From: Lonicera japonica
Lineage: Eukaryota; Streptophyta; Magnoliopsida; Dipsacales; Caprifoliaceae
Assembly (NCBI GenBank): GCA_021464415.1
Contig: CM038471.1
Span: forward strand, 30,229,234-30,293,233
Length of the DNA: 64,000 bases
Direction of reading: 5' to 3'
Below are positions 22,251 through 61,380 of this stretch, one piece after another (position 1 is the stretch's first letter; each line of letters starts with the position of its first letter). The notes under the pieces are model-generated. The model did no database searches. It worked only from the letters and a program-made list of their open reading frames with translations, and had not been told where the DNA came from. The position numbers and the translations under genes are program-made.

Positions 22251-22414
22251 AATTATGGGTTGAAGAAAGTACAGAGATTGGAGAACTAATGTAAGGAATA
22301 AAACAGTTCGATATTCTCTCAACTATATTTTCTCTCTCCTTTTTTGAAAAAGATATTCTCTCCTCAACAAATCTCTCTCTCTCATCAATTCCTTAGTCAC
22401 CCTATTCTCTTGCT

Positions 22415-34647: not shown

Positions 34648-37600
34648 AATGGTACTCAATTAATCGAGGATGATATAGCAAACCGAGTGCTTAGCACTAG
34701 ATCGGACTGCATTCTAGGACTCGGCCATGGTCCAAAGCCGCCTAAGTCTCAATCATCAAATATCAAGGCTTAAAGACAAGAGCCTCTCAGGGAATCTATA
34801 AGGCAACAAGAACAATTGGTAGTACATATGGAAAAAGCCTTAGAGGCAGCCCGTGGTACGGATTCAGCATTGGGAAAGTTTAACAAGTTAATTGAGTCAT
34901 TGGCTGCATCTGAAGTCCTTCCTTTGACATTAATTTACTTTCCATGTTAATTTAATATTTATTCACTAAAATGTAGCAAACAAGCAAAGAGTTTAGTTGG
35001 CTACTGTTATTAGCTTAATGGGTTTGCTATAGCCTAGCATTTCTTAAATCTTTGTGTATTCTAAATGAGTAAGCTTTAATAGTAGTAGAGAATACATGCA
35101 ACTAATGGGTTCATTCAATTTAGGAGATAAACACTAAAAAAGGGGCAAGATATATAATTTCAAAGGTTCTAATCTCATAGATGAATATCTTTCATTCTTT
35201 ATCACTAAATAAATGATAGTTTTGCAATTTTTTGTTATGCAGATTCAATTCGATTGTAGTAGGATCATCTTGGTTAGTTTGGAAGAATTAATTAATGTCA
35301 TGATACAAGATTGAACTTTCAAGTTCTTGAAGATGTTATTTTTGCCAACTTTTGATTTGTCCGTCTTGGACTTGACTCCTCTCCATACCATTATCCCTGC
35401 GGTCCAATTCCATTCAAGAAAGTCTAGTTTAAGGGTTATACGGGTGAATTTTTTCATGAAATTTGGTAAACAATTACTCTATAATGAGTAGATCATGTTT
35501 GCAAAATTTAATCATAAAATTCAATCCGGAAGTGAGCGTAGTAAAAATTTGATGCATTTGTTCATTTTTTACTGTTCAAATTTTAGATTATCAACTCAAC
35601 ATTTTTTACATTGAATCTTTTGATGAAATTTTACAGAAATGATCTATTTATCATAGAGATCATTTCAACCAAGTTTCATTAAATTTTTTTTTATGTATGA
35701 TCGACAAACTAAATAGGTCTTGTTACTTAGTGTATTTCTTTTGAGTTTAACTCAATGATACTTATTTCATTATTGGATATTTAAAATATATGTTTAGTAT
35801 TCTAAATGTTTTGTGACATGACGGATTGAATATATTAAAGTATTATTACAGAAATTGATAAACTTAAATGCATGTACGTATGTTCTCTTAGTGACATATT
35901 GAAATAATTTAATTAATTTGGTATAAATTAAATTTCCACCTGAAAGAAAAATCAACATGGATTTTTCGGTGACGATATACCGGCGAGATCAATATATATG
36001 GGTCGCCAAGTTATATTGTATTAGCTACTTTATTTATTTAATTATCTTCTTTGTTTTTTAGATTATTGTCCCCTTTCATGTACTCAAAGACTAATATATA
36101 AATATTTACAATTAATGGAGTCTAATAGAAATGAATATTTTGATGCTTTTCCTAAAGGCGCTTGCCATTTTTTTTTAAGTTCTTTTTTAAAGGGAAAATG
36201 TCAAATTCTATTTTTATTAAAAGACCTTAGATTGAATTAATTAGTTTAGAAGTCAGTTTTTTAGTTAAAGACACAATATTAATAATTATATTATTTTAAT
36301 TAAATAAGTTAAAATTTAATACTACATTTCTTAGAGATAAATACAAAATTCAAACAAGAAGATAAACACAAGAATTATTCAAAAAAAGTAAAAAATGTGA
36401 ATGTCTCAAACTAACCGGACATAATATGATACTGAAACTGCAAATATGTCTGAATCACAAATCTCCCATAATAACAAGAAAACATATTAAGTTAAGTTTT
36501 TCTAATTATTTTTTTGGCAGACATTTTATGTTGCATCTTTTCAAGTTTTTGTCAGAAATATGAAATTACACCTTTTCAATTTTCTGCAAGATATATTATG
36601 TTATATATATATATATATATATTTTCAAATTTTTGGTAGACATATCAAGTTACATTTTTTTCAATTTTTTGATAGACATAGTATAAAATAGGAGTGAGCA
36701 TTGCACCTCATATATTATATGTCCACGCGGATGGAAGCCACCTACTTCTCCATGGCAGCTACCTCCTTTCTCATTTTCTTCACCTCAACATCCATTGCCT
36801 TGGTTAAAGTATCTACTTTGTTTGCTAATATCTCACTGGTAGAGCCAGAAATTTAAATATGAACAGGCAAGTAGTAAAGCTCTTTATTCTTAAGTTAAAA
36901 TTTTAGGTATTTTTATTTGAACAGTATGAAATTGTTAAATTAAAAAACAATTAGTTTTAGTAATAAATTACGTTGAAGTTCACATGTATTATAAATATTA
37001 TGAACAGGAACTCTTAATCCAAGACCGGGCATGCAAGAAAAATAACCATATATTTATTTCTTAATTAAAATTATGTAAGTTATTATTTAAAAAACAAAAA
37101 AAATAATTTTGCCTTAACGCACCCATAAATTAGTAACCAAAGCAATCAATACAAGTTTTAAAAGCTGAGTTTTTTTTTTTATTTTTTTTATTTTAATCTT
37201 ACTATCTGCCTTCAAACCCAATTAAAAGTATACTTTTTCTTCTTTTGAAACATCTTAAACATTATGTAATTTATCTCCTGATAATAAAATATCTTAGGTG
37301 CAACTAAATTGAAAAAAAAACAACAAAAAGTTGTCACCTCATCATGGTTTAATACTTGAGAACCAAATTTCCTTCGATTTAATCTTTCTTTAAAATGAGA
37401 ACAATAACACATCTTAATTTGAGAATGATCTTAATTGAGAAGTAGAGAGAGTTTTAAATAAAGAAATACATTCCAACCCATAATCTTGCCAATTTGATCT
37501 TAGTGAGAATGATGTAATGATCGGAATATTACAGTAAATATATAGGTGAAACATATAATTATATAAAGAAGTAGATTGAGAGTTTCAAAAGAAAAGAAAG

Positions 37601-38082
37601 TTAAAGATTTGGTGTTGGACAATAAAATGGAACTAAAATTATGACTACTAGTGGTAATATAACTCAAAATCTGACTTGGACTATAGCTTGCTTAATTAGC
37701 CTTCTTGTGATATATGTTTGAATATATTGGTTTGATTTAATCCCAAATTTTATTGTAAATTTATTTTGCTATATTTTTCTTTAAGAGGGGTAGTATTGAA
37801 ATTCAACTTAATTAATTGAAATAATAATAAAATTAACATTTTGTTATTGATTAAAAAGCTGTCATTTAAACTAATGATTATCAGATGTGAATTATTATAA
37901 TCAACATTTATATATATATATTTTTTTATTATTTTCTAATCTAAATGCATTAATAAAACAATAAATATGTGTATCTATGGCGAGAGTAAATCATGCATAC
38001 AAGCAGAAGCCGAAATTAGATTGAATGCTTTCTAAGGGTATCTTTGTTAGTACAATAAACAATAAAGAAAAACTAATGCATA

Positions 38083-38113
<31 letters not shown>

Positions 38114-38248
38114 AAAAAAAAACTAAATTATTTGGGTCAATTTTAGTAGTAATATTTTTTCCTCAAAATTAAATGGGGAAATTTAAACAAACTTTTTTCT
38201 AAGAAAGTACCTGGAAGCATATATATATGGGGTAATAATAAACTTCAT

Positions 38249-38260
38249 TTGACCGGTCAA
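38249..38260. promoter_or_regulatory. Palindromic double W-box upstream of the first TIR-HMA gene
   Basis: TTGACCGGTCAA contains a W-box core (TTGACC) on each strand, 168 bases before the ATG at 38428. W-boxes bind WRKY factors, regulators of defence genes. The same palindrome precedes the second copy at 52005-52016. Function is inferred. Confidence 0.45.
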
Positions 38261-38427
38261 CAATATAATATTTAACTAAATAAACTTTTGTTTAAGAAGT
38301 AGATTGAAATTATCCAAGCCAACCCCCTCCATCTTCTTGATAACCAATATAATATCCTCTGCAACATAATTGCTTTAAATTACGCTTGGGTTTCATTGCC
38401 CAAAGCAATCTTTCTCCCAATAATATA

Positions 38428-39064
38428 ATGGCTGTTGTAAGATCTTCTTTCAATAGTTATGATGTGTTTTTGAATTTTAGAGGTGAAGATACCCGAAAAA
38501 CTTTTACACATGAACTCTACATGGCTCTAGTTCAAGGAGGACTTTCCGCTTTCAAAGACGACGAGGATATGATGGACAAGGGCGAAGATCTAAAATCAGA
38601 ACTAGAAAAAGCGATCCGCCGGTCAATGAGCTCAATAGTTGTCATTTCAGAGAACTACGCATCTTCCACGTGGTGTCTTGATGAACTTGTGCTTATCCTT
38701 GAACAAAGGAGGATCAATCGGCACGTGGTTCTACCTGTGTTCTATGATGTGCATCCATCCCATGTTTCGAAGCAATCAGGGAGGATAGCAAAAGCATTTG
38801 CTAGATATGAAGAGCAATTTGAGGCAGAAACCGATTCCAGCCGGAAAATAGAATTGATGGAAAAGATAAAAAGGTGGAGATCCGCACTTACAGAAGTTGG
38901 TTATTTGAATGGGCTGTACTTGCAAAACCATGTTGTTGGGTACATAACTTCCTCTCTTATTTAACTCAATACTCATATACATTTAATTGCCATATATCTA
39001 TATATATATATATATTTTGTGGCTGTCTGGAGCCTGGAATCTATGCAAGAAGTTTAAATTTGAA

Positions 39065-39097
<33 letters not shown>

Positions 39098-40708
39098 ATA
39101 ATTTGCTTATTGTTTGAATGTATCCTCTGAAGAATAAGCCAGAATATCACAAATTTTCCACTGCCAGTGCTTAATTTAATTTTATGGTAAATGAATCTTT
39201 GTAGCTATTTTATTTATTCGTACTTGATTATGTGATTAGCATAGCAAATCAAAGTATCAAACGCTAATGTGGCAAGTTTCCGCCAAGCCAAAGCTTTTCA
39301 ATAAACTCAGGAAGCAATCTGGGATACCTTGATTCCCACTTTGATCGTCCTAAATTATGTAGACACTAAAAGGACAATTTACCTTCCCTAAAAATTCGGT
39401 TGTTTCTATTTGACTTTACAAATTCAAAGAAAACACCATATGTCAACCGAACTAGTTGATAAGAATACGATAAAAAAACCACACTCTTAAATTAGGATAA
39501 CATCGTAGTATTATCGCTGTTGCTTTAGGTTTTGCTATTGTTATTATTGTTTCTACAAGACTTTCTCGGTATATTTGATTATCTACCATTCTTATCAAAT
39601 TCGAATGGATTTGTAGGCATGAATCGAAGTTTATCGAAGAAATTATAAAATTCATTGGTGACAAATTCATTCAGTTGACGGTGGTTTTGAAAATTAGGCT
39701 GCACAGTGAGAGTTGCATCAGTGAAATCACGAGAATTATCATATCAATGATAAACGGTGAGTTAAACCTAATTTTGATTATTTTAATTCTTAAACTTAAT
39801 ACATTTTTAAACTTGATAATATCAAGGATATGCAACTACTTGATTGAAGTTAAATATTGTTTTCATTATTAATTTAGCAGTCAAGCTATAAATTTTTTGA
39901 ACACAAAAAAAATTCTTCTCTTAGAAAAAAAGAGTAAGAATTTAGTAAAAATAAGTAACAATGTAATATTTTTTTGAAACATGATTATAAGTTCTCTAGT
40001 GCATTTTCTGAAAAATAATTTGAATAACCAATATTTTTAAATAGATTATACGTTCACTATTGCACTTTGTGAAAAATAATTTTAAAAAGTTGATCTATGT
40101 ATCTTTATATTTATTTATTTTTGAAAAGATTAAACTTTTATATTAGTTAATTTTGAGGTACAAATATATTTGCTTTTCATGAGGTATGGTCATGCGTTTG
40201 TAGAGTACTATAATTTTTAACACTCGTTTTAACTTTTTAATCAGGGGTGGAAAAGTATACAGTAGATCCAAGAAAAGATTTGGTTATAGTAGAAGGAAGA
40301 ATGGACGTAAAAAAACTTGTATTTTATTTAGAAGAAAAATTAAAGCAGAGCGTGCAGGTTGTTTCAATAGTAAAGAAAGATGACAAAGGTGGTGAAAACG
40401 AAGAGAAAAGCGACGATAAAAGCAGCGATGAAAAGGACAAAGACAGTGTAGGAGACAAGAAAGAAGAGGAAAGCGGCAGCGGTGATGGCAAAAAAGAGAA
40501 TAAAATGGAATATTATGAGTATAATCCTAATACATATACGATACCAGTATACCACCAGAGTGATGAGAAAAAAAAGGAAAGTAGCAGTGGAGACGGAGGT
40601 GGAGGTGGAAAAAAGGAGAACAAAATAGAACACATGGGATACAATAAGTTTAATTGGTACTCCTACACGATGCCAATGTATCATTACGCCCCTCACAGTC
40701 AAAATTAG
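38428..40708 (+). CDS. TIR-HMA fusion protein, copy 1 (no NB-ARC or LRR)
   Basis: Predicted exons 38428-38939, 39617-39756 and 40245-40708 join in phase (2, 1) to 371 residues. Residues 1-168 are a plant TIR domain (YDVFLNFRGEDTRKTFTHEL, YASSTWCLDEL, VLPVFYDVHPSHVSKQSG). HESKFIEEIIKFIGDKF follows, the usual start of a TIR-NLR second exon, but the chain then enters an HMA domain (about residues 191-258: TVVLKIRLH, ING-VEKYTVDPRKDLVIVEGR, KKLVFYLEEKLKQSV). The metal motif HCxxC is degraded to HSESC. The tail is Lys/Glu-rich, then two Gly/Tyr repeats (YNPNTYTIPVYHQS type), and ends early at TAG 40706 with no CaaX box. TIR domains act as NAD-cleaving or signalling modules in immunity; HMA domains bind metals or are targeted by pathogen effectors. 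A longer N-terminus from an ATG at 38386 is possible. The exon 2 and 3 joins need transcript support; the alternative is a TIR gene and an HMA pseudogene side by side. Confidence 0.68.
39068..39099. repeat. (CT)n microsatellite in intron 1 of TIR-HMA copy 1
   Basis: A run of CT dinucleotides follows the TIR exon. The equivalent tract in copy 2 lies at about 52811-52838. Confidence 0.85.
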
Positions 40709-41189
40709 ATGGTGCCAAAGGATATAAGAGTAATTGAACATAGAAGAGGATAAGCATTTGCATTTTGGTTCAGGTGGGTGGTTAATTAATTTGTTTAATT
40801 TTGTTTTGTTCTTAATTAGTGGGTCAGAGATCTCAATCGTGTTTATTTATTTTATTAACACAAGCTTAAAATAAAATTGAATAAAATGGTGAATGACGAT
40901 TAAGCTATATTAATTATATAAATGGGTTACGCGGTTTGCAACTTAAATAATTTTGTATGGGCTCTGCTATATATACACGCTAGTTAGGTTTATATCCCTG
41001 CTTGATACGCGGAAGCGGTGCATTTTCCGCGTAGAATTTCGGTGCTTTTACATTGTACGTATAGCACTACTCAAACACATATTGTGTTGTAATTATAATT
41101 ATAATATTTAGTGATAAATATGAATATTATATCGTGAGATGTATAAATATAATTGTTATGAAATAATATAATGATAAGTAATTGAAGCG
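40709..41189. other. Non-coding spacer after unit 1
   Basis: AT-rich sequence with no recognised gene or repeat; similarity to unit 2 has ended. The next element is a copia retrotransposon. Confidence 0.5.
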
Positions 41190-41636
41190 TTTGTAATATA
41201 TTATTAGAAATCCAACTTACATTATATGCTAGGAGTTGACTTGTATAGTTTCTTTCTTTGTATTTTCCTTTTCGTACTTGTACATACCCTTATATATGGG
41301 GCTCTCTCTTGTATATTTGACTCATTCAATTCAATAAAAGAGTTCTCTCTTCCTTTTCTATTATTATCATGGTATCAGATGCGTAAGGTCCTCTGTCTAT
41401 TTTATCAAGCCGTTCTCACCGATTCACATTCTTCAATCACCGATGTCCTCGTCAGCAATATACATCATAACATAGCACATCACTAGATCTACTCATCATA
41501 CATTAATCAACACCGATTGCCGTGATATACACCATCTCTGCCATACTTTCAAACCAATATCTATTTCCACCAAAGTATAATTCAACCACTGAACCAATCC
41601 AAAACCACTGCCATCGAAAACCAATCCCAAATACCA

Positions 41637-42217
41637 CCACTAACATATACCACCACTACCCAAAACCTATCCCAATCATCTTTGTTAGTCTGATTTGTAT
41701 CATAAACACACCAATACAATCACCTCGACTAAACAATCCCAACCGTACAAACCACAACTCAAATAGACCTTTCATGCGCTGCGCTCTCACTCCTGAAAAG
41801 TATAAAACCGTCCTTGCCTCATTCTTTTACACGCAGAAATTCCACATGCCCCACTTGTGCATCCAACTCAAGCATTTCACGAGCGATTCCCTTGCTCGCC
41901 CCCACGCGTTAGTAGTCGCGCGTTAGTCACCACCACTAACCTATACTACCACTACCCAAAACCTATCCTAATCATCTTTGTTAGTCTGATTTGTATCATA
42001 AACACACCAATACAATCACCTCGACTAGATGATCCCAACCGTACAAACCACAACCCAAACAGACCTTTCACGCGCTCTCACTCGCGAAAAGTATAAAACC
42101 GTCCTCGCATCATTCTTTCATACGCAGAAATTCCACGTGCCCACGTGTGTATCCAACTCAAACGTTTCACAAGCGATTCCCTTGCTCGCTCAAATGCGCC
42201 AGCAGTCGCGCGTCAGT
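41637..42217 (+). repeat. Tandem duplication (two 290-bp units) in the copia leader
   Basis: Both units contain CAAAACCTATCC, TTTGTTAGTCTGATTTGTAT, CAATACAATCACCTCGACTA and GCGATTCCCTTGCTCGC. They are adjacent and differ by scattered substitutions, so the duplication is not very recent. Confidence 0.8.
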
Positions 42218-42433
42218 CCACCCGCCAGAGATTCAACACCATTTGCCCTAATCCGGTTCAGCCAGACTAGTTTAACATTCACTGTTTTGGCATGTTCACC
42301 AATTTTTTGACCAGTTTTCAACAATATCCAACCGGTTCCTAAGGCTTTCAGCCATCCTGGTCCTGTTTTTGGCCTCAATTGGTTCAAAAATAGCTTCATT
42401 CCTACTATTTGAGATATCACTAAACTTTCCACA

Positions 42434-45400
42434 ATGGAAAATTTTGATATTGCTCGTCCCATCTCAATCACTCTTAATGGACCGAATGATATACGTTGGG
42501 CCCAAGTTATGACTAGCTTTCTCAAAGCCCGTAGAGTTTGGTGAATCGTTACCAGAGACACTATCGAGCCCATTCAAAGACAAGGAGAAACAATCAAGAA
42601 ACACATTGAGCGGCAAGAGAAATGGGATAATAAGAATGGTGATATCATCAGTTGGTCTCGCAACACCTCCACATCTATCAATTAACAATTTGGTCGATTC
42701 AACACAGCAAAGGAAGTGTGGGATTTTAGAAAAGCACGATACACCACCAATGACCTTGCTCATCAGTATCAGCTTATAACTGCCTTGCCTGCCAAGACTC
42801 AATAACCAGATTAGTCAATTAATAGTTTTCAGTCAAAGCGTTATGTTATATAGGATCAACTAGCTCTCTCTAAACCTGTTTGGGATTCCCTTACTGATGT
42901 TGCAAAGTTCGAAAACTACCGTGATCATCAACGAGTAATTACTCTTCTTATGTCCCTACATGATCAATTTGAACCAGCTCGAGCTGCTCTTCTTCATTGC
43001 CAACCCCTACCAACCATTGATGAGGCAATTACAGGACTTTTGTCAAAAGAAACTCGACTTGGTACCAGATCTCAAAATATTGATGCTGTGCTTGCAACTC
43101 ACTACATAAAATCTTCTATGTCAACCTTTTAACGTCATTGCTCATACTACCTTGCTACCGATTATGCATTGCTCTACTATCTTATTCGAATCTACTGGCC
43201 TGTCACAAGCAAACGTCAGGTCACTATCAATAAGATTGTCGTAAGAATCCATCCAAATGTTCTCACTCCACTTCTATCACTGCTGGTACCACTAAACAAC
43301 CCATCAACACTTCAGAGAGTTCTACTTCCTCAATATCTATTAATGACATTGTATCCCTTCTAAAATATGTTATATCCCCTTTTGGTACTGCCATGTCTGC
43401 CATCTCAGGTACTTCTTGGTTCTTTAATTCTGGATGCTATAATCATATGACTTATATCCAAAGAACCAATCACACATACATCGTCTATTAATGTTGCTGA
43501 TGGATCTCAATTACGTGTCAGTTATATCGGATATGTAGCTACTTATAATCTCTCATTGCCTACTATTTTTCATATTCCAAAATTGACTATAAACCTTATT
43601 TATGTTGGTCAATTGTGTGATCTTTGACTAAATGTTATATTCTCTTCCTCTGGTTGTAATATGTAGGATCCATGGACGGGGCAAATTATTGGTAGAGGCC
43701 GTAATGTTAGGCACATCTTTGATCTTATTCATCTTCTCCCCCCAACCACTAACTTTTAAATCTACACCATCTAATTCTCATCTTAGTTAACGAACATTCT
43801 AGGTTAGGTCATGTGTTTTTTGATCGATATTCGATTTCTTGTGTCTTTTGGTCATTTAGCTTCAATAAAGTCTGATAAAGTGTCACGTTCATCTTGTTAA
43901 CTTGGAAAATAGCCGACATTACCTTTTAATAAAAGTGATTCTATTTCTTCTGTACCATTTGATCTTATACATTCTGATGTTTAGGGTCCTTCTCCTCACA
44001 ATATTATGGGTGGTTCAAAAATATTTTGTTATCTTTCTAGATGACTATAGTCGTTTTACCTAGATATATCTTCTGATAAACTGCTCAAAGTTACCTCAAA
44101 TATACTATAATTTTGCTCGAATGATTTAGACTCAATTTTCTCACTTAATCAAAGTTTTTCTTGTTGATAATGCTATGGAATATAAATAAGCAAATTTTAT
44201 TAAATTTTTTCATGAATATGGAATTATCTTTCAATATTCCTATCTAGGCACGTCTCAACAGAATGGTTGTGCTAAGCGTAAACATAGACACATCTTGGCC
44301 ATTGTTCACACTCTTCTTATTTCTAGTTGGTGTCCTGGGTGTTTTTTAGGGGAAGCAACTCTTATTGCTGTTTACACGATCAATCGCATTCCAGTCCCGA
44401 GCCTTAAAAACCAATCACCTTATTAAAGGTTATACGATATTTTACCTGCTTATAGCATTCTAAAGGTGTTTAGTTATGCATGCTTTGTGTTATTTCAACA
44501 ACATGAACACTTCAAACTTGAATTTCGGTCTCGTCTCTACTGTTTCTTAGGGTAAGGAATCGACACAAAGGGTATAGATGCTGGGTCTCTAAACGCTTAC
44601 GTATTTCTGGCCATGCCATATTTTGGGAGTATAAAATATTTAACTTCCCTATCTATGTTTCATGTCTCTGAGGAATCTCATTTTCTTTTCTTCACTAACT
44701 CTATTATTGATTTTTCCCATCGACCACTACTATAGCAAATGAATTAAATAATCTGCCTTCCACTTAACCTGAGACATCCACTACTAATTCTGATCATTCG
44801 CTCAACCCATGGAGAATGCCATATCATTTGAACCATTTTCACCTAAAATGAGTCTTTAACGACAATCAATCCCATTGGAGATGCCACGTTTATTGATCAT
44901 GTCATGATTATTATTGTTACTCTATTATATTCTCACACCGTGATCCTTCCTCTTTTAAAGAAGCAAATTCTAACCCATTATGGCAGAAAGCTATGTTTGA
45001 GGAATTATAGCTTTGGAAAAAGCTCAAACATGGGAGTTAGTTGCTTTTCTACCTGGAAAAACTGCAGTTGGTTGTAAATGGGTATATAAAATCAAAACTA
45101 GATCTAATCGTTTGGTAGAACGATACAAAGCCCATTTTGTTGCCCGAGGTTTCACCCAGGAGTACGGTATTGATTGTGAAAAGATTTTTGCTCCTGTTGT
45201 TTGCATTACATATGTTCGTAAACTTTTTGCCATTGTTGTTGCTCGAAGATGTCATATTTTTCATATGGATATAAAGAATGCATTTCTCAATGGTAAACTC
45301 AATGAAGAAGTTTATATGGAATCTCTTTCAGGATATACTCATTCCCCTTCTTAAGTTTGTAAATTTCGCCGTGCCTTGTACGGGTTTTAAGAAGGCTCAT

Positions 45401-45692
45401 TGCATTTGGTTTGCAAAATTCAGCTTAACAATTGGGAAGTTTGGTTTTACTTCTAGCAATTTGGGTTCTAGCCTCTTTATTCAATTCGGCAAACAGATAA
45501 TGGTATTACACTCCTCCTTTTTTATGTGGATGATATGATAATCACAGGAAATCATCATGTATGTATATCTAATTTCAAAAGATCTCTCAGCCAACATTTT
45601 GAAACCTCAATCATCTCAACTACTTCTTAGGTCTTGAAATTATTTCTGACTCAAATGGTTATTATCGTTCTTAAGCAAAATATACTTATGAT
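42434..45692 (+). pseudogene. Copia gag-pol remnant
   Basis: Gag starts MENFDIARPISITLNGPNDI at 42434 and continues with stops to about 43130 (LMSLHDQFEPARAALLHCQP). Integrase-like sequence follows with many breaks (for example QQNGCAKRKHRHIL near 44260). The RT block at 45013-45354 shows ALEKAQTWELV, KWVYKIKTRSNRLVERYKAH, FVARGFTQEYGIDC and FHMDIKNAFLNGKLNEEVYM. The catalytic LFYVDDMIITGN lies near 45520-45550 in another frame. The end is LNYFLGLEIISDSNGYYRS near 45650. It is dead. Confidence 0.85.
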
Positions 45693-45952
45693 ATCATCAA
45701 ATATCAAGGCTTAAAGACGAGCCTCTCAGGGAATCTATAAGGCAACAAGAACAATTGGTAGTACATATGGAAAAAGCCTTAGAGGCAGCCCGTGGTACGG
45801 ATTCAGCATTGGGAAAGTTTAACAAGTTAATTGAGTCATTGGCTGCATCTGAAGTCCTTCCTTTGACATTAATTTACTTTCTATGTTAATTTAATATTTA
45901 TTTACTAAAATGTAGCAAACAAGCAAAGAGTTTAGTTGGCTACTGTTATTAG
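45693..45952 (+). repeat. Tail fragment of another duplication unit
   Basis: This 260-bp piece matches 34757-35013 of unit 1 (from TCATCAAATATCAAGGCTTA to GTTGGCTACTGTTATTAGCT). It is joined directly to the head of unit 2 at 45953, so a tail-to-head tandem duplication junction is preserved. Confidence 0.8.
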
Positions 45953-46305
45953 CTTATTCGCACAGAAATACTCGAGTATGCCTTTGAAACACTAAGAAAG
46001 ATAATATCAAAAGTCCATGTGTTTAGTGCTTCTACAATTAGGCTACCTGATTATAACTAATTTGTAGTTATGTGGATTAATTAGTTACATTAAAGTTAGC
46101 TGCTACTTTTTTTTCATTTTTTCTTCTTGTTGTCCTATATATCAGTATTAGTTTACAAGTAAAATGGTATGCAGATTAAACTCAATTGTTCATACCAAAC
46201 CCATTCGAAATACATGACATCTCTTATCATCTAGATAACATACTTAAAATGAATTTTAATTAACCGTTGAAGAATTCTATGATTTCTTAGTAAACCTGTT
46301 ACTTT

Positions 46306-46860
46306 AATAAGCAGATTAAGATTGAGCTTGGTCGGATTGATTTTTATGGACATACTCATTACAAGGAAAGAAAAGATTGGACGACAACTAGAGCTAAGTC
46401 ACACTTTGTAAGATAACGTATTGACGTTTCTCATAGTAAATTCAGATAAAATGGCTTTTAGTTCAAAACTTTATGTACACTACATTGTTTTTTGCAAGAA
46501 AAGATATATGGATCGACTGAGAAAGCAATCCACTTCAAATGGTACTCAATTAATCGAGGATGATATAGCAAACCGAGTGCTTAGCACTAGATCGGACTGC
46601 ATTCTAGGACTCGGCCATGGTCCAAAGCCGCCTAAGTCTCAATCATCAAATATCAAGGCTTAAAGACAAGAGCCTCTCAGGGAATCTACAAGGCAACAAG
46701 AACAATTGGTAGTACATATGGAAAAAGCCTTAGAGGCAGCCCGTGGTACGGATTCAGAAGCATTGGGAAAGTTTAACAAGTTAATTGAGTCATTGGTTGC
46801 AGCTGAAGTACTTCCTCCTAGATTAATTTACCTTATGCGGAGTATTAAACTGACGATAAT
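46306..46860 (+). pseudogene. Decayed plant transposase-like segment, unit 2
   Basis: The uninterrupted counterpart of the split copy in unit 1. An exon-like piece IELGRIDFYGHTHYKERKDW ends in a GTAAG donor near 46407. The next block reads KKRYMDRLRKQSTSNGTQLI, then RVLSTRSDCILGLGHGPKPP. After an in-frame TAA at about 46660 come EQLVVHMEKALEAARGTDSE and NKLIESLVAAEVLPP. The pattern suggests the C-terminal half of a Ptta/En-Spm type protein. This is inference; the N-terminal half is absent. Confidence 0.45.
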
Positions 46861-47655
46861 TTAATATTTATTTACTAAAATGTAGCAAACATGCAAAGAG
46901 TTTAGTTGGCTACTGTTATTAGCTTAATGGGTTTGCTATAGCCTTGCATTTCCTAAATCTTTGGGTATTCTAAATGAGTAAGCTTTAATAGAGAAAACAA
47001 CTAATGGGGTCACACAATTTAGGAGATAAACACGAAAATATGGGCAAGATATATAATTTCAATGGTTCTAATCTTATAGATGAATATCTTTCATTCTTTT
47101 ATCATTAAATAAATGATAGGTTTGCGATTTTTTGTTATGCAGATTAATTCAATTCAATGGTAGTAGGATCATCTTGGTTAATTTGGAAGAATTGATTGAT
47201 GTTATGATGCAAGATTGAACTTTCAAGTTCTTGAAGATGTTATTTTTGGCAACTTTTGATTTGTCCCTTCGGTCCTATTCCATTCAAGGAAGTCTAGTTT
47301 GAGAGTTAAACGGGTGAATTTTTTTCATGAAACTTGATAAAGAATCACTCTATAATGAGTAAATCATGTTCACAAAATTTAATCATAAAATTCAATTCGA
47401 AAGTGAGCGTAATAAAAATTTGATGCATTTGTTCATTTTTCACTATTCAAATTTTAGATTATCATCTCAACATTTTCTAAATTGAATCTTTTGATGAAAT
47501 TTTTTGGAGATGATCTATTCATCATAGAGATCATCTCAACCAAGTTTTATTAAAAAAATTTATCCGTTTAATTATTGAACTAGACTCCCTTTTACGGAAT
47601 TTGACTGAAAGATAATGAAGAGAAACCAAGTTTACTTTTTCTTATTTTATTTTTT

Positions 47656-48003
47656 GGGTGATTTGGACTTTGGGTGTCGTTTGTTTCTGCATATCAGACA
47701 TTGGGTGCCAAAGTTTTGCATAATAAGTGTTTGGGTGCCATTTTGAATAGAATCCGTTAGTCAACGTGGTCAACTGTTAGCTCCGTTAATTTTTGACCCA
47801 ATTTACCCATTTTACCCCTAGAAAAAGGCAAAACATATTACTCTTGCTTAGGGGTAAATCGGTCAAAAATTAATGGAGCTAATGGTTGACCATGTTGACT
47901 AACGGATTCCGTCCAAAACGACACTCAAATACCTATTATGCAAAACTTTGACACCCAACGTTTGATATGGAAGAACAAACGGCACTCAAAATTTAAATCA
48001 CCC
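47656..48003. mobile_element. Foldback (MULE-type) MITE, about 170-bp arms
   Basis: The 348-bp element is almost entirely an inverted repeat: GGGTGATTTGGACTTTGGGT at the left and GGGTGATTTAAATTTTGAGT (reverse complement) at the right, with GGAATCCGTTAGTCAAC-type sequence in both arms. It is absent at the matching sites of units 1 and 3. The flanking T-runs hide the exact target duplication. Confidence 0.8.
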
Positions 48004-48047
48004 TTTTTTTATGTATGATCGACAAACTAAATAGGTCTTGTTATTTA

Positions 48048-48474
48048 GGGCCCGTTTGGTTGCGTAAATTACCTAATTTTAAAATTAGTTAATTTTCGAT
48101 TAAAGAATTGTGAATTTGCTCATTTATGAATAATTTAATTCTAATTCAAGTAGTGTCTGAAAAACTTAAACGAGAAATTCCGATTGTTAGAATAAAATCA
48201 TGTTATCTATTGTTCTATGTTATTTAAAATTTTGTATAAATGCATCAACATCACGAGTAGAAACTAGATCTTCTCGAAAAATAGAGTTTGAATGAATTAT
48301 CTAATTCTAGAATTAGGCAATTTCAAGTTTTACTTGAAATGACTTAATTTGAGTTTTTGTGAATCAACTTGAATTATCATATTTACAATTGTTCAATTTA
48401 CACAACAAAACACTAATAAATGAAAATTTTGTAAATTATCTAATTCGCAATTTGAAGGACAACCAAATGGCCCC
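48048..48474. mobile_element. Tourist-like (PIF/Harbinger) MITE, TSD TTA
   Basis: Terminal repeats GGGCCCGTTTGGTTG and GGGGCCATTTGGTTG (reverse complement), flanked by TTA at 48045-48047 and 48475-48477. Units 1 and 3 read GTTACTTAG through the site without the insert, confirming a 3-bp TTA duplication. Length 427 bp, non-coding. Confidence 0.88.
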
Positions 48475-50338
48475 TTAGCGTATTTCTTTTGGGTTTAACG
48501 TACTCAATGATACTTATTTTATTATTGGATATTTAAAATATATGTTTAGTATTCTAAATGTTTTGTGATATGATGGATTGAATATATTAAAATATTATTA
48601 CCGGAACTGATAAACTTAATTACATGTACGTATGTTCTCTTAACACATATTGAAATAATTTAATTAATTTGGTATAAAATAAATTTCCACCTGAAAGAAA
48701 AATCGAAATGGATTTTTTGGTGACGATATACCGGCGAGATCAATATATAAGGGTCACCAAGTTATATTATATAATTAGCTACTTTATTTATTTAATTATC
48801 TTCTTTGATTTTTAGATTATTGTCCCCTTGCATGTACTGAAAGACTAATACATAAATATTTACAATTAATGGAGTCTAATAGAAATGAATATTTTGATGC
48901 TTTTCCTAAAGGTGCTTGCCTCTTTTTCTTTTTTTTATCTAAAGGGCAAATGTCAAACTCTAATTTTATTAAAAGACACTCGTTTAAATTAATTAGTTTA
49001 GAAGACAATTTTTTAGTTAAAGACACAATATTAATAATTATATTATTTTAATTAATTAAGTTAAATTTTAACACTACATTTCTTAAAGATGAATACAAAA
49101 TTCAAATAAGACGATAAACATAAGAATTATTCAAAAAAACTTAAAGATGTAAACATCTCAAACTAACTAGACATAATATGAGACTGAAACTGCAAATATG
49201 TCTGAACTACAACTCTCCCATAATATATAGCAAGCAGACATATTAAGTTATGTTTTTTTGATTACTTTTCTGGCAGATATATTAAATTGCATCTTTTCAA
49301 ATTTTTGTCAGATATATTAAGTATCTTTTCAATTTTCTGCCAGATATATTAAATTACATTTTTTTTTCAAATTTCTGGTATACATATTAAGTTACACCTT
49401 TTCAATTTTTTAATAGACATAATATAAAATAAGAATGAGCATTGCACCTTATATATTATATGTCCACGCGCATGGAAGCTACCTCCTTCTCCATGGCTGC
49501 TACCTCCTTTCTCATTTTCTTCACCTCAACAGTTAAAGTATCTACTTTGTTTACTAATATCTCAGTGGTAAACCCAGAAATTTAAATATGGACAGGCAAG
49601 TAGTAAATTAAAGCTCTTTGTTCTTAAGTTACAATTTTAGGAATATTTATTTGAAGAGTACGATATTGTTAAACAACAGTTAGTTTTAGCAATAAGTTAG
49701 GTTAAAGTTCATATGTATTATAAATATTATGAACAAGAACTCTTAATCTATAACCGGACACGCAAGAAAAATAACCATTTTATTTATTTCTTAATTATAA
49801 TTATGTAAGTTATTATTTAAAAAACAAAAAATAATTTTGACTTAATGCACCCATAAATTAGTAACCAAAGCAATACAAGTTTTAAAAATTGAGTTTTTTT
49901 ATTTTATTTTAATCTTACTATTTGCCTTCAAACCCAATTAAGAGTATACTTTTTCTTCTTTTGAAACATCTTAAACATTATGTACTATATCTCATGATAA
50001 TAACATATCTTAGGTGCAACTAAATTGGAAAAAAAAAAGTTGTCACCTCATCATGGTTTAATACTTGAGAACCAAATTTCCTTTGATTTAATTTTTCTTT
50101 AAAATGAGAACAATAACACATCTTAATTTGAGAATGATCTTAATTGAGAAGTAGAAAGAATTTTAAATAAAAAAATATATTCTAACCCATATTCCTGCCA
50201 ATCTGATCTTAGTGAGAATGATGTAATAATTGGAATATTATAGTAAATATATAGGTGAAACATATAATTATATAAAGAAGTAGATTGAGAGTTTCAAAAG
50301 AAAAGAAAGTTAAAGATTCGGTGTTGGACAATAAAAGG

Positions 50339-51390
50339 GGGCTATTATTTACACCCCCCCATTTTGTCACTAACACCACATTTATCACAAACACCTCCCT
50401 CATGTCAATTTTTAGTCACTAACACCCTCCACCCAATTAAAAGTTAATACAAACATTAATTAAAAATAAAATTACTTAACATTGAAAAAGAAAGAAGTCA
50501 TTTACGTCTCTCACCTAATGACAGGTGAGTGAATTCACATACATTCACTTCACATCAGGTGAATGTGTTGTAAGTGGCTCACCTAATATAAGGCAATGGA
50601 GTGAGGAGTGTACTGGAGTATTTATAAATTAGACTCACCTAATGATAGGTGAGTGAATTCACACATATTCACCCTACATCAGGTGAATGTGTTGTAAGTA
50701 ACTTGCCTAATAATACACTCGTCTTACATGGGGTGAGTGTGTCTATACACACTCGCCTTATTTGAGGAGAGTTGTTACTAGATTACTCTCCTTATATAAA
50801 GCGAGTCAAGCCTGGACAGAACTCGTTTTATACTCTGTTTTTAGGATTATATCTTTGTTTCAATTTGAATGTTATAAAATGAGATATGAAAGCTAATATA
50901 CACATTAATACACTAATAATAACAATTATAATACATCTTTGGCTTCATTTTGAAGTGGAATTTCACCACCAATTTTTTCTTGAACTTCTTCTTTCTCCAC
51001 CATCTCATGAACAATGCTTCTTATTTATCATAATCTAAGCTTCAAACTTTCCACCAATAATGTTTGTGCTTCGATTTGGTTGTGATTTCTTGATTTGGAA
51101 AGCTCAAATGATAAAGAAGTGAGTCTCTTCTCTCTCTATCGTTTTACTTGAAGCAATGGAATGTGATTGTGAATGGGGAAAAAATGGGAGATATAGGTTT
51201 AAGTATTTGGGTTAATGTTAGATTAGTTTATTAAAAATGAATAAATAGATAGGTTAATATTTTAATCATTGGGTAAATAAGTTAAGTGAGAGGGTGTTTG
51301 TGACAAAAAAGTGGAGTGTTGAAATGTATTTTTTATAAAATTATAGATGGTAGTGTTAATGACAAAATTGAGGGGTGTAAATATTAGCCC
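50339..51390. mobile_element. Non-autonomous DNA transposon with internal hairpin repeats
   Basis: Terminal inverted repeats start GGGCTATTATTTACACCCC and, at the other end, GGGCTAATATTTACACCCC. Unit 1 lacks it (GGACAATAAAATGGAAC near 37620). Flanks CAATAAAA and CAATAGAA look like an 8-9 bp target duplication with one change, suggesting a MULE or hAT relative. Two units of about 70 bp (50509-50579 and 50634-50703) each contain a short palindrome TCACCTAATGACAGGTGA. No transposase. The segment 50930-51180 is free of recognised genes. Confidence 0.75.
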
Positions 51391-52004
51391 ACCAATAGAA
51401 TGGAACTAAAATTAAGACTACTAGTGGTAATATAACTCAAAGTATGACTTGGGCTATAGCCTGCTTAGCCTTCTTATGATATATGTTTGAATATATTGGT
51501 TTGACTTAATCCCAAATTTTATTGTAAATTTATTTTCTTGTATTTTTCTTTAATTAAGAAGGGTAGTATTGAAATTCAACTTAATTAATTGAAATAATAA
51601 TAAAATTAACATTTTGTTATTGATTAAAAAGCTGTCATTTAAACTAATAATTTTAAACGGATGTGAATTATTATAATCAGCATTTGTATATATATATATA
51701 TATTTTTTTTTTCTAACCTAAATGCATTAATAAAATAGTAAATATGTGTAACTATAGCGAGAGTCAATCATGCACACAAGTAGAAGACGAAATTAAATTG
51801 AATGCTTTCCAAGGGTATCTTTGTTAGTATAATAAACAATAAGGAAAAACAATTGCCTATATTTTTTAATTTTTTTTAAAATGCCTAAATTATTTGGGTT
51901 AATTTTAGTAGTAATATTTTTTCCTCAAAATTAAAGTGGGAAATTTAAACAAACTTTTTTTTCTAAGAAAGTACCTGGAAGCATGGGGTAATAATAAACT
52001 TCAT

Positions 52005-52016
52005 TTGACCGGTCAA
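52005..52016. promoter_or_regulatory. Palindromic double W-box upstream of the second TIR-HMA gene
   Basis: TTGACCGGTCAA, identical to the site in unit 1, 169 bases before the ATG at 52185. A further GTCAAC core lies near 52075. Possible WRKY binding. Confidence 0.45.
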
Positions 52017-52184
52017 CAATATAATATTTAACTAAATAAACTTTTGTTTAAGAAAGTAGATTGAAATTATCCAAGTCAACCCCCTCCATCTTCTTGATAA
52101 CCAATATAATATCCTCTGCAACATAATTGCTTTAAATTACGCTTGGGTTTCATTGCACAATGCAATCTTTCTCCAAATAATATA

Positions 52185-54772
52185 ATGGCTGTTGTAAGAT
52201 CTTCTTTCAATAATTATGATGTGTTTTTGAATTTTAGAGGTGAAGATACCCGAAAAACTTTCACACATGAACTCTACATGGCTTTAGTTCAAGGAGGACT
52301 TTCCACTTTCAAAGACGAGGATATGATGGAGAAGGGCGAAAATCTAAAATCAGAACTAAAAAAAGCGATCCGTCAGTCAAAGAGTTCAATAGTTGTCATT
52401 TCCAAGAACTATGCGTCTTCCACGTGGTGTCTTGATGAACTTGTGCTTATCCTTGAAGAAAGGAGGACCAATCGGCACGTAGTTCTACCCGTGTTCTATG
52501 ATGTGGATCCATCCCATGTTCGGAAGCAATCAGGAAGGATAGCAAAAGCATTTGCTAGATACGAACAGCAAGTCAAGGCAGAAACCGTTTCCAGCCGGAA
52601 AATAGAATTGATGGAAAAGATAAAAAGGTGGAGATCCGCACTTACTGAAGTTGGTTATTTGAATGGGCTGCACTTGAAAAACCATGTCGATGGGTACATA
52701 ACTTCCTCTCTTATTCAACTCAATACTCATATACATTTAATTGCCATATATATATATATATATTGTTGCTGTCTGGAGCCTGGAATCTATACAAGAAGTT
52801 TAAATTTGAATCTCTCTCTCTCTCTCTCTCTCTCTCTAATTTGCTTTTTGTTTGAATGTATCCTCTGAAGAATAAGCCATTTCGCCTTAACAAATATCAC
52901 AAATTTTTCACTGCAAGTGCTTAATTTAATTTATGGTAAATGAATCGTTGTAGCTATTTTATTTATTCGTACGTGATTATGCGATTAGCATAGCAAATCA
53001 AAGTATCAAACCCTAATATAGCATGGTTTCGCTGAGCCAAAGCTTTTCAACAAACTTAGGAAGCAATCTGGGATACCTTGATTCCCACTTTGTTCGTCCT
53101 AAATTATGTAAACACTGAAAGGACATTTTACCTTCCCTAAAAATTCGGTTGTTCCTATTTGACTTTACAAATTCAAAGAAAACACCATATGTCAACCGAA
53201 CTGGTTGATAAGAATAGGATAAAGAAACCACACTCCTAGATCAGGATAACATCGTAGTATTATCACTGTTGCTTTAGTTTTTGTTATTGTTATTATTGTT
53301 TCTACAAGACTTTTTCGGTATATTTGATTATGTACCATTCTTATCAAATTCGAACGGATTTGTAGGCATGAATCGAAGTTTATCGAAGAAATTATAAAAA
53401 TCATTAGTGACAAATTGATTCAGTCGACGGTGGTTTTGAAAATTAGGCTGCACTGTGAGATATGCATGAATAGAATCAACAAAATTGTATCAAAGATAAA
53501 CGGTGAGTTAAACCTAATTTTATTTTTATAAGTAATAATATTTCTTTTGAAACATGGTTATAAGTTCACTGGTGCATTTTCTGAAAAATAATTTGAACTT
53601 GAATAACCAATATTTTTAAATAGATTATGCCTTCATTATTGCACTTTGTGTATCTTTATATTTATTTATTTTTGAAAAGATTAAACTTTTAAATTAGTAT
53701 TGTAATTTTGAGGTACAAATATATTTGCTTTTCATGAGGTATGGTCAATGGTCATCCTTTGTAGGGGTAATTAGCAAAAATGAATCCTAAAGTTTGACCC
53801 AAATCTCTCGCTCGTTTCTAAAGTTTTATTTTCGGTTAAAGTATCTTTAAAGTTTCTAATTTCAGTTGAAGTATCCAAAAATGGTCCTTAAAAGAGTGGC
53901 TTGTGAAAGTCACGTGCGGTTTTCATCTATCTTTTTAACGGGGCATCCAATTTTTGACGAGTAAGGAAAAATTAGAAACTTTAAGGATGTTTCAACCGAA
54001 AATTAAACTTTAGCGACAAACGAGGGATTCTGATCAAACTTTAGGAGTCATTTTTGCTAATTACCCCTTTTATAGAGTATTATAATTTTTAACACTTGTT
54101 TTAATTTTTTAATCAGGTGTTGAGAAGGTTATATTAGATCCAAGAAAAGATTTGGTTATAGTAGAAGGAAGAGTGGACGCGACAGAACTTGTACTTTATT
54201 TAGAAGAAAAATTAAAGCGGAGTGTGTATGTTATTTCATCAACAAAGAATGATAACAAAGGTGGTGAAAACAAAGAGAAAGAAGGCGATAAAGGCGGTGA
54301 TAAAAAGGACAAAGACAGTGTAGGAGACAAGAAAGAAGAGGAAAGTGGTGGTGGAACTGGCGAAAAGGAGAAAAAAATGGAATATTATGGGTATAATCCT
54401 AATACATACATGATACCAATGTACTACCAGAGTGACAAGAAAGAAAAAGAAAGTAGCGGTGGAGGTGGCAAAAAGGAGAATAAATTGGAATACCATAGGT
54501 ATAATTTTAATACAAACACGATGCTAGTATGCCACCAAAGTGAAAATAAAGAAAAGGAAAGTGGGGGTGGAGGTGGAGGTGGAGGTGGCAAAAAGGTGAA
54601 TAAAATGGAATACTATGGGTATAATCTTAATACACACACGATACCAGTGTACCACCAAAGTTATCCTGCGCACACTCAAAATTATTTTAATCACGGTTAT
54701 ACTGTGGACTACTCTCAGTCGCCCTCAGGGGGTGAGCCTAGTTACTACCATCATGCCATGCCTGTACAGTGA
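52185..54772 (+). CDS. TIR-HMA fusion protein, copy 2, with intact metal motif and repeat tail
   Basis: Exons 52185-52693, 53366-53502 and 54117-54772 join in phase to 433 residues. TIR domain at 1-168: YDVFLNFRGEDTRKTFTHEL, the likely NADase glutamate in WCLDEL (E85), and VLPVFYDVDPSHVRKQSG. Residues 169-187 (DGHESKFIEEIIKIISDKL) match the exon-2 start of TIR-NLR genes. The HMA domain occupies about 190-256: TVVLKIRLHCEICMNRINKI with the metal-binding pair C200/C203, then GVEKVILDPRKDLVIVEGRV. After a Lys/Asp/Glu linker come three repeats of about 40 residues (KKxNKMEYYGYN...YHQS plus Gly runs), a layout typical of HIPP metallochaperone-like proteins. The annotated frame stops at TGA 54770-54772; in the next frame the HIPP-type ending YSDDSPNGCSVM with a CaaX box runs to 54803. 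About 20 of 170 TIR residues differ from copy 1. Fusion is inferred from splice signals and open phase. Confidence 0.7.
53764..54067. mobile_element. MITE in intron 2 of TIR-HMA copy 2
   Basis: Terminal repeats GGGGTAATTAGCAAAAATGA and (reverse complement of the right end) GGGGTAATTAGCAAAAATGA enclose 304 bp. The matching intron of copy 1 reads GCGTTTGTAGAGTAC without it. Flanks TTTGTAG and TTTATAG suggest a mutated 8-9 bp duplication, MULE style. The right end lies about 50 bases before the exon-3 acceptor. Confidence 0.8.
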
Positions 54773-54803
54773 TGATAGTCCAAATGGGTGTTCCGTAATG
54801 TAA

Positions 54804-55154
54804 TAAAGTAGAGGGGGGCAAAAGTATAAAAAATAAAATAAAAATAGAAACAAGTTATGTTTTAATTTTTCTCTATAATCAAATTTTATATTTGTTTGTA
54901 TATGTATATAAAAAAAAAAAACATAACGGCCATAAGACAATTGGATGTTATGATATGCAATTGGTTATTAACATAACGGCCATTATATGAATAGTAATAA
55001 TATGAATTTTATGATATGCAATTGGTTATTAGTTTAATAAATGTTTAATTTATAGTGCTGATTTTAGAGTGAAGAAGTATTATAGCAAAATAGGAACAAG
55101 TTCCTCCTCCGACCGAAAATTGTGCACCATCGATCGACAATTCTTGACTATGCC
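54804..55154. other. Spacer between units 2 and 3
   Basis: The 3' flank of TIR-HMA copy 2. It contains a repeated motif (TATGATATGCAATTGGTTATTA, in two copies near 54950 and 55010) and no gene. Confidence 0.4.
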
Positions 55155-57461
55155 ACTGGTCCAAAGCCGCCTAAGTTTCAATCATCACATATCAAGATTT
55201 AGCTACATGACGCTCTTAGGGAATCCACAACGCAACAAGAACATGCAATTGGTAGTGCATGTCGAGGAGGCCTTAGAGGCAGCTCGAGGCACGGATTCAT
55301 AAGCATTGGAAAAGTGTAACAAGTTAATTGAGTCATTGGTTGTAGCTGAAGTCCTTCCTCCTAGATTTTCTTTCTGGGGAGTATTAACTCATGCTAATTT
55401 AATAATTATTTACAAAAAACTAGCAAATCAAAGAGTTTAGTTGGCTACTCTTATTAGCTTAATGGGTATGCTATACGTACCCTTGCATTTCCTAAATCTT
55501 TGGGTATTCTAAATGAGTAAGCTTTAATAGAGAATACAACTAATGGTTAACACAGTTTAGGAGATAAACATGAAAATATGGGCAAGATATATAATTTCGA
55601 TGGTTCTAATCTCATAGATGAATATCTTTCATTCTTTATCATTAAATAAATGATAGTTTTGCAATTTTTTGTTATGCAGATTCAATTCGATGGTAGTAGG
55701 ATCATCTTAATTGGTTAATTTGGAAGAATTGATTGATGTCATGATAAAAGATCGAACTTTCAGGTTCTTGAAGATGTTATTTTTGGCTGCTTTTGTTTTG
55801 TCCATCTTCGGCTTGATTTCTCTCCATAATTCCTTCGGTCGGTTAAACGAGTGAATTTTCATGAAACTTGGTAAAGAATCACTCTATAATGAGTAGATTA
55901 TGTCCACAAAATTTAATCATAAAATTCAATCCGGAAGTGAGCGTAATAAAAATTTGATGCATTTGTTCATTTTTTACTATTCAAATTTTAGATCACCATC
56001 TCAATATTTTTTAGATTAAATCTTTTGATGAAATTTTGCGGAGATGATCCATCATAGAGATCATCTCAACCAAGTTTCAGTAAAAAAATTCATCCGTTTA
56101 ATTTTTGAACAAGACCTCCTTAAATAGAATTGGATTGAAAGATAATGGAGATGAGCAAAGTCCATCGATTTTAAACTCCAAATGCTATGTTTACTTTTTG
56201 TTATTTCTTTTTTATGTATGATCGACAAACTAATTAGGTCTTGTTACTTAGCGTATTTCTTTTGGGTTTAACTCAAGGATACTTATTTTGTTATTGGATA
56301 TTTAAAATATATGTTTAGTATTCTAAATGTCTTGTGATATGATTGACTGCATATATTAAAATATTATTACGGGAATTGATAAACTTAATTACATGTACGT
56401 ATGTTCTCTTAGTCACATATATATTGAAATAATTTAAATAATTTGGTATAAATTAAATTTCCACCTGAAGGAAAAATCAAAATGGATTTTTTGGTGATGA
56501 AGTTATATATACCGGCGACATCAATATATACAGGTCACCAAGTTATATTATATTAGCTACTTTATTTATTTAATTATCTTCTTTGATTTTTAGATTATTG
56601 TCCCCTAGCACGTACTCAAAGACTAATATATAAATATTTACAATTAAAGGAATTTAATGAAAATGAATATTTTCGGCGCTTTTTCTAAAGGGTTTTTTTA
56701 AAGGGCAAATGTTACACTCTATTTTTGTTAAAAGACACTCGTTTAAATTAATTAGTTTAGAGGATAATTTTTTAGTTAAAGACACAATATTAATAATTAT
56801 ATTATTTTAATTAATTAAGTGAAATTTTAATACTACATTTCTTAAAGATAATACAAAATTCAAACAAGAAGATAAAATATGAGATTGAAGCTGCATATAT
56901 GTCTTAACCATAATTCTTCCATAATAGCAAGCAAACCTATTAAGTTATGTTTTTCTAATTATTTTTCTCCCAGACATTTTAAGTTGCATCTTTTCAATTT
57001 TTTGTCAAAAATATTAAGTTACATCTTTTCAATTTTCTGTCAGATATATTACGTTACATTTTTTTTTTCAAATTTCTGGCAGACATATTAAGTTACATTT
57101 TTTCAATTTTTTGGTGGACAATATAAAATAGGGATGAGCATTGCACATTATATATTATATGTCTACGCATGGAAGCAACCTCATTCTCCATGGCAGTTAC
57201 CTCCCTTCTCATTTTTTTCGCCTGAACATCCATTGCCTTAGTTAAGGTATCTACTTTCTTTGTTAATATCTCAGTGGCGGAGCTAGAAATTTAAATAGGG
57301 TCAGGCTAGTAGCAATGTTCCTTGTTCTCAAGTTACAATTTTAGGTATATTTATTTGAAGAGTATGAAATTATTAAATAACAATTAGTTTTAGCAATAAA
57401 TTATGTTAAACTTCATATGTCTTATAAATATTATTAACAAGAACTCTTAATCTAAGACCGG
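55155..57461 (+). repeat. Segmental duplication, unit 3 (truncated both ends)
   Basis: From CCACTGGTCCAAAGCCGCCT it aligns with units 1 and 2 through the transposase-like tail (VVHVEEALEAARGTDS near 55250-55300) and the AT-rich region. It stops at CTAAGACCGG, where the gypsy LTR begins at 57462. The corresponding positions in units 1 and 2 continue uninterrupted (near 37028 and 49755). It ends about 1.4 kb short of where a TIR-HMA gene would begin; any such copy would lie beyond the gypsy element, outside the window. Confidence 0.82.
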
Positions 57462-61338: not shown

Positions 61339-61380
61339 TCTACTTTCTTTTTTCTCAATTTCTTTTCTTTTTCCCTCATT

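Follow-up and report, generated by a model that had tools for sequence, protein, structure and literature searches.

Tandem genes in Lonicera japonica predicted to splice a TIR domain directly to a HIPP-type HMA domain

The window analysed here is a stretch of 64,000 nucleotides from Lonicera japonica (contig CM038471.1; C9:30229234-30293233), in which two tandem genes appear to splice a TIR exon onto exons for an HMA domain like that of HIPP proteins. Both genes were rebuilt from the sequence, and the coordinates, intron phases, open frames and product lengths given by the initial annotation were all derived again. Copy 1 has exons at 38428-38939, 39617-39756 and 40245-40708 on the forward strand and a product of 371 residues; copy 2, on the same strand, has exons at 52185-52693, 53366-53502 and 54117-54772 and a product of 433 residues. 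The eight splice ends of the two copies carry GT or AG, the introns lie in phases 2 and 1 in each, and the frames are open. Exon 1 of copy 1 encodes the TIR, with a Glu at AE-interface position 29, and follows a TIR-NLR-like leader over the 74 nucleotides upstream of the ATG. Its exon 2 begins like exon 2 of a TIR-NLR gene, to about 39669, and continues from about 39678 as the first half of the second HMA of a HIPP, the boundary having been transferred by position from copy 2. Exon 3 supplies the second half of the HMA and a HIPP-like tail that terminates in HYAPHSQN, without a CaaX box, an ending shared with the Lonicera macranthoides protein LguiB_021414 (P0136). In copy 2, exon 1 encodes the TIR with its catalytic Glu85, exon 2 has TIR-NLR homology up to 53418 and HIPP homology from 53427, and exon 3 encodes the second half of the HMA and a Gly/Tyr tail. 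A remnant of the HIPP CaaX end (54771-54803, forward strand), which reads DDSPNGCSVM, sits at the stop of copy 2 in a different reading frame.

In Pfam searches of the spliced products, the TIR domain (PF01582) was recovered from both (E of 4.2e-41 in copy 1 and 3.8e-46 in copy 2). The HMA domain (PF00403) scored above the 24.8-bit cut-off in copy 2 (E 4.9e-6, 27.3 bits) and below it in copy 1 (E 1.2e-4, 22.8 bits), and at E 0.01 it was found in all five members of set A2. The identity of the HMA rests on Pfam, on sequence matches in the PDB and on one Foldseek match; the HMA part of the predicted model was barely covered by VIA-align. Neither product had an NB-ARC match in Pfam at E 1. When a TIR-NLR protein (P0016) was searched against the window with tblastn (E 1e-3), only its TIR, residues 1-174, found a match, and so no NB-ARC was found in the window. 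The description of the locus as a tandem family of TIR-HMA fusions without NB-ARC or LRR, carrying an HMA and tail of HIPP type, held up in Pfam, in tblastn and across the nine loci described below.

The origin of the fusion can be followed in copy 2, which we compared by blastn with four TIR-NLR genes that share its chromosome (L047-L050). Homology to these genes begins 74 nucleotides upstream of the ATG, runs through exon 1 into intron 1, and resumes over up to the last 214 nucleotides of intron 1 and the first 53 nucleotides of exon 2; the middle of intron 1 is mostly unmatched by them. Further upstream sequence from three of the four genes did not extend the homology in the 5' direction. 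Homology of copy 2 to a HIPP gene with two HMA domains (L036, C2:12159121; HIPP C2 below) starts at nucleotide 62 of exon 2 and covers the latter half of that exon, intron 2 and exon 3. At L034 and further loci of the family, a match extends beyond the HIPP stop into the HIPP 3' flank. The fusion point, as placed by the blastn ends, falls between 53418 and 53427, an interval of about 10 nucleotides. Exon 2 holds both kinds of sequence in one frame, so the join is exonic and spans no intron; as aligned here, the 5' end of a TIR-NLR gene gives way directly to a HIPP gene, from its second HMA through the tail to the 3' end. The HIPP intron is retained within the fusion in the same phase and with a similar donor context, which indicates capture of genomic DNA and rules out retrogene capture of the HIPP. 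Synonymous divergence (Ks) between the family HMAs and HIPP C2 is 0.36-0.58, compared with at least 1.6 or saturation against a HIPP on C3, which is thereby ruled out as the donor. HIPP C2, the closest HIPP relative among those compared, is the likely donor; HIPP-like matches on C4 and two on C2 were left out of gene building.

We searched the genome (886,079,548 bases) with the HMA part, which gave 20 matches, and with the TIR, for which 150 matches were scored among 832 candidates. Both searches converge on nine loci, five on C9 and four on contig C452 (L032-L035). On C9 the TIR and HMA exons start at 30267661 and 30269450 (copy 1), 30281418 and 30283340 (copy 2), 30295484 and 30297394 (L029), 30329978 and 30331717 (L030), and 30339738 and 30341819 (L031). 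Among the 150 scored TIRs, identity to that of copy 2 is 80% or more in nine and 74% in the next best. Since the L035 TIR is 98% identical to that of copy 2 and the TIR codons of L034 and L030 are identical, C452 is probably the other haplotype. The three-exon plan, phases 2 and 1 and both introns are common to all nine loci, and all 36 splice dinucleotides are intact. The exon finder sought shared splice motifs and would have failed at a wholly lost site; it failed at none of the nine, and we estimate the chance of intact sites throughout at about 0.03, as a product of two values. Nine loci of one plan also rule out chance or misread frames as the source of the gene models. The frame is open through TIR and HMA at seven loci (copy 1, copy 2, L029, L032, L033, L034 and L035). 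L030 (C9:30325500-30334800) and L034 (C452:149500-158500) are likely alleles, of which only L030 has a stop ahead of the HMA; this gene therefore looks intact on one haplotype only. About 1 kb past the end of L031 exon 3 lies a second partial HIPP tail with a CaaX end and 3' flank, where L036 matches at nucleotides 1954-2200 after the start of that exon.

Relatives occur in another species of the genus, L. macranthoides, which supplied the closest matches among the proteins listed. Three of its annotated proteins (P0001, P0002 and P0003) carry both PF01582 and PF00403, whereas LguiB_021414 is annotated from exon 3 only. Two protein searches were made, the second scoring the 7971 proteins that share most words; we took the best 120 of 1353 and the best 120 of 2664 passing proteins. 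Three of the 120 matches listed in each search combine the two domains, all of them from L. macranthoides, the candidates being proteins of 0.55-1.75 times the query length with shared short words, a range outside which a full-length TIR-NLR-HMA protein would fall. The remark in the initial annotation that this design was not known to it as a described class is in keeping with our literature search, which found no description of such a fusion among the papers listed.

The modules of the family do not share one history. Copy 1 joins copy 2 by its TIR and intron 1 and joins L030/L034 by its HMA and intron 2. L033 is grouped with L030/L034 in the trees of TIR and intron 1 but not in those of HMA or intron 2. 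Support is 97-100% of 200 bootstraps at the nodes on which this conflict between the TIR and HMA trees depends; other nodes have 46-76%, among which are those of copy 1 and copy 2 in the TIR tree, and the allele pairs are supported. Since the comparison of TIR and HMA trees tests whole topologies, the case for exchange rests on the bootstraps and intron trees. Within the window, copies 1 and 2 diverge by 5.9-6.8% over the flank, exon 1 and intron 1, with 8.3% in an upstream block; exon 2 diverges by 11.7% and the first part of exon 3 by 15.6%. From the tree conflict and this uneven divergence we infer that TIR and HMA modules have been swapped between paralogues. As read from these comparisons, the TIR-HMA architecture is real, multiplied and shuffled.

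We propose that these tandem chimeric genes encode a protein in which the HMA acts as effector bait and the TIR as an NAD-cleaving signal, a reading to which we give about an even chance. Exons 1-3 would be transcribed and spliced into one mRNA, and the HMA would be a bait to which pathogen effectors or other ligands of such domains bind. A bound ligand would bring TIRs together, which would then cleave nicotinamide adenine dinucleotide (NAD+) and signal via the EDS1 route, as TIR-NLR proteins and TIR-only proteins do. Every member counted has Glu or Lys in place of the core His of the AE self-association surface, so a TIR by itself would probably not assemble, and proximity driven by the HMA or by heterotypic contacts would be needed. 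Members that keep a CaaX box may also be anchored to membranes through prenylation. This sensing-and-signalling reading is the most likely of those we weighed, but it is unproven, and the changed AE-interface His and the missing in-frame CaaX box of the window copies call for caution.

Three things count in its favor: the catalytic Glu is kept, the TIR is under purifying selection, and the HMA changes fast with its frame open. Twelve members were counted, the nine loci and three proteins, P0004 being left out because it has half a TIR. All 12 retain the catalytic Glu (E85 in copy 2), which aligns with RUN1 E100, the Gly of the YLNG region, which we take to be that of the second TIR self-association surface, and the residues equivalent to RPV1 R36 (AE-peripheral) and E170, with RPV1 numbering derived by hand from alignments. 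Selection was assessed with a codon-likelihood script on IQ-TREE trees that included the two disrupted loci, their stop codons masked. The one-ratio omega of the TIR is 0.393 and differs from 1 (p 6e-8). When two HIPPs were added to the HMA tree, omega was 0.94 for the family HMAs (not different from 1, p 0.78) compared with 0.145 on the HIPP branches (p 2.6e-6). Mean HMA identity is 76.0% within 15 HIPPs (105 pairs), whereas five family members reach only 56-59% against these HIPPs, a comparison set that is small and non-random, since the regional HMA search gave 19 proteins among 30 candidates.

Several results weigh on the other side. The loss of the AE-interface His argues most strongly, on alignment, against a simple autonomous TIR: at the position equivalent to RPV1 His42, six of the 12 members have Glu and the other six Lys. 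The comparators, 81 proteins whose TIR has a YDVF-type start close to the N terminus, have His there in 64 cases, among them all 17 from L. macranthoides. According to passages of one report, His42 forms the core of the AE contact in RPV1, and His42Ala abolishes TIR cell death (PMC5143477). Elsewhere, excerpts state that the RPS4 SH/AA mutant gives no TIR cell death even when oligomerized (PMC7414095) and that AE mutants of RPP1-TIR, RBA1 and TX14 lose condensation and NADase activity (PMC10972746). The RPV1 report also describes His at that AE position as less preferred in species such as soybean (PMC5143477), and the AE-interface SH motif is described as not well conserved over plant TIR groups as a whole (PMC9806590). 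The split between Glu and Lys may point to heterotypic pairing.

The remaining points on that side concern the HMA and the integrity of the genes. Over the family, the one-ratio omega of the HMA is 0.895 and not distinguishable from 1 (p 0.63), and positive selection on it is not significant (M2a versus M1a, p 0.37), even with Ka/Ks at 1.1 to 2.0 in the single pairs L029-L030, L029-L031, L029-copy 1 and L031-copy 1. No stop falls in the 68-codon HMA of the nine loci, compared with 4.5 expected if neutral (P 0.011), a result that hinges on where the HMA starts and becomes P 0.061 if the L030 stop is counted as one event. That stop lies two codons ahead of the HMA, L031 has a stop within the TIR, and the tails of L033 and L029 are frameshifted. 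Three of six L. macranthoides models (P0004, P0011 and P0136), which are partial or spliced differently, do not join the three exons, and at their C termini P0001 and P0002 diverge from the family tail into dissimilar sequence. The HIPP C2 terminus is CSVM, and neither window copy keeps this CaaX box in frame: in copy 2, as in L035, it is out of frame, and in copy 1, as in L029, it was not found. It is in frame at two of the nine loci (L032 and L034) and in L. macranthoides P0003; in L030, L031 and L033 it is in the exon-3 frame, behind a stop or frameshift. Separately, the CxxC motif is present in four of the seven products open through the HMA, including copy 2 (HCEIC), and gone from copy 1 (HSESC, without the first Cys), L033 and L034. 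The HMA and HIPP-like tail proposed by the initial annotation stand, with two corrections: the first CxxC Cys of copy 1 is lost, and neither window copy has an in-frame CaaX box.

The AE change would also fit a catalytically idle or inhibitory TIR adaptor that is unable to self-assemble. It would pair with TIRs belonging to other TIR-NLRs, titrating or tuning them, and its HMA part would retain a location or partner like that of a HIPP. The loss of the His in all 12 members, a TIR still under purifying selection and many TIR-NLR-like TIRs on the same chromosome agree with this account, which we consider possible and rather unlikely; the catalytic Glu, other-interface Gly and AE-peripheral Arg are kept in all 12, beyond the needs of an idle fold, and the rapid change of the HMA is left unexplained. 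Slightly less probable still is that a single fusion was copied along with a repeat-rich segment and that most copies are functionless, decaying chimeras. An HMA omega near 0.9, premature stops at two of nine loci, frameshifted tails, window copies without an in-frame CaaX box and the position of the copies in a tandem segment interrupted by insertions all agree with decay. A TIR omega of 0.39, seven of nine loci open through both domains, the deficit of HMA stops, the intact splice sites and the retention of members in a second Lonicera species speak against it.

Far less probable, in our view, is a misjoining of two genes, a TIR-only gene ending in intron 1 and an HMA gene starting from exon 2 or 3. 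Read-through at the first donor does stop after about eight codons in copy 1 (38964) and 58 in copy 2 (52868), and LguiB_021414 has its exon-3 annotation; yet the shared frame of TIR-NLR exon-2 and HMA sequence within exon 2, the agreement of phases and introns at all nine loci and three annotated proteins that read through all argue for one gene. Least credible is a product that works chiefly as a HIPP, in binding metal or in stress signalling, and whose TIR is a passenger or regulates NAD. The retained HIPP 3' end, the two in-frame CaaX boxes and the four CxxC motifs would suit this reading, but the CxxC losses, an omega in the HMA about six times the value on the two HIPP branches and the TIR as the better-conserved half are hard to place in it.

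The window genes lie within tandem units on the forward strand, delimited by self-blastn. Unit 1 (34648-40707) comprises blocks at 34648-35683, 35726-37630, 37620-39786, 39951-40192, 40197-40633 and 40454-40707, and the blocks of unit 2 (46538-54684) are 75-90% identical to them and interrupted by insertions. The start of a third unit occupies 55146-57461; its gene is presumably L029, whose TIR (C9:30295484) lies past the window end (C9:30293233), after Ty3/Gypsy-like sequence. By eye, Ty3/Gypsy-like pol and gag open frames are found at 57978-62961 on the reverse strand, shortly beyond the break-off of the third unit, and Copia-like polyprotein pieces at 24643-26216 (reverse) and 45001-45354 (forward), upstream of and between the units. 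Also recognized by eye were Mutator-type (MULE) transposase-like open frames with a SWIM-like zinc finger and CCHC end (7445-10055, forward) and exons like those of an ILR1-type IAA-amino acid hydrolase (18874-22322, reverse).

To our knowledge, known integrated decoys sit on NLR scaffolds, and we know of no obvious ligand sensor in TIR-only proteins. If the sensing-and-signalling reading is correct, a natural two-part TIR-HMA protein would reveal whether immune recognition needs no more than a TIR and a target domain, and it could give designers of plant receptors a compact template from nature. With a likely donor, a breakpoint and paralogues that differ in HMA type, the question is directly testable.

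TIR-HMA genes can be set beside several known systems. As in rice Pik-1 and RGA5, a HIPP-type HMA has apparently been captured by an immune-receptor gene; those two are coiled-coil NLRs with NB-ARC and LRR, whereas here the TIR is joined directly to the HMA and neither NB-ARC nor LRR was found. AVR-Pik binds rice HIPPs, according to PMC11611257. With TIR-only or TX proteins such as Arabidopsis RBA1 and TX14, the fusions share a TIR-NLR-derived TIR, the lack of an NB-ARC and the catalytic Glu, but they add an HMA and HIPP tail and have the AE-interface His replaced. HIPPs of the HIPP3/5/6 type offer the likeness of the second HMA, a Gly/Lys and then Tyr-rich tail, the phase-1 intron and, in some members, the CaaX box; in the fusions the TIR replaces the first HMA and the N terminus, and the CaaX box of the window copies is out of frame or absent. 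HMA domains named HIPP6 form chain D of PDB entries 30kx and 30ky. RRS1 is a TIR-NLR with an integrated WRKY domain and, unlike the TIR-HMA genes, has an NB-ARC and LRR. It resembles them in placing a TIR and an effector-target domain in one protein, as portions of PMC12787737 describe, and it pairs with RPS4 via their TIRs, as noted in part of PMC5143477.

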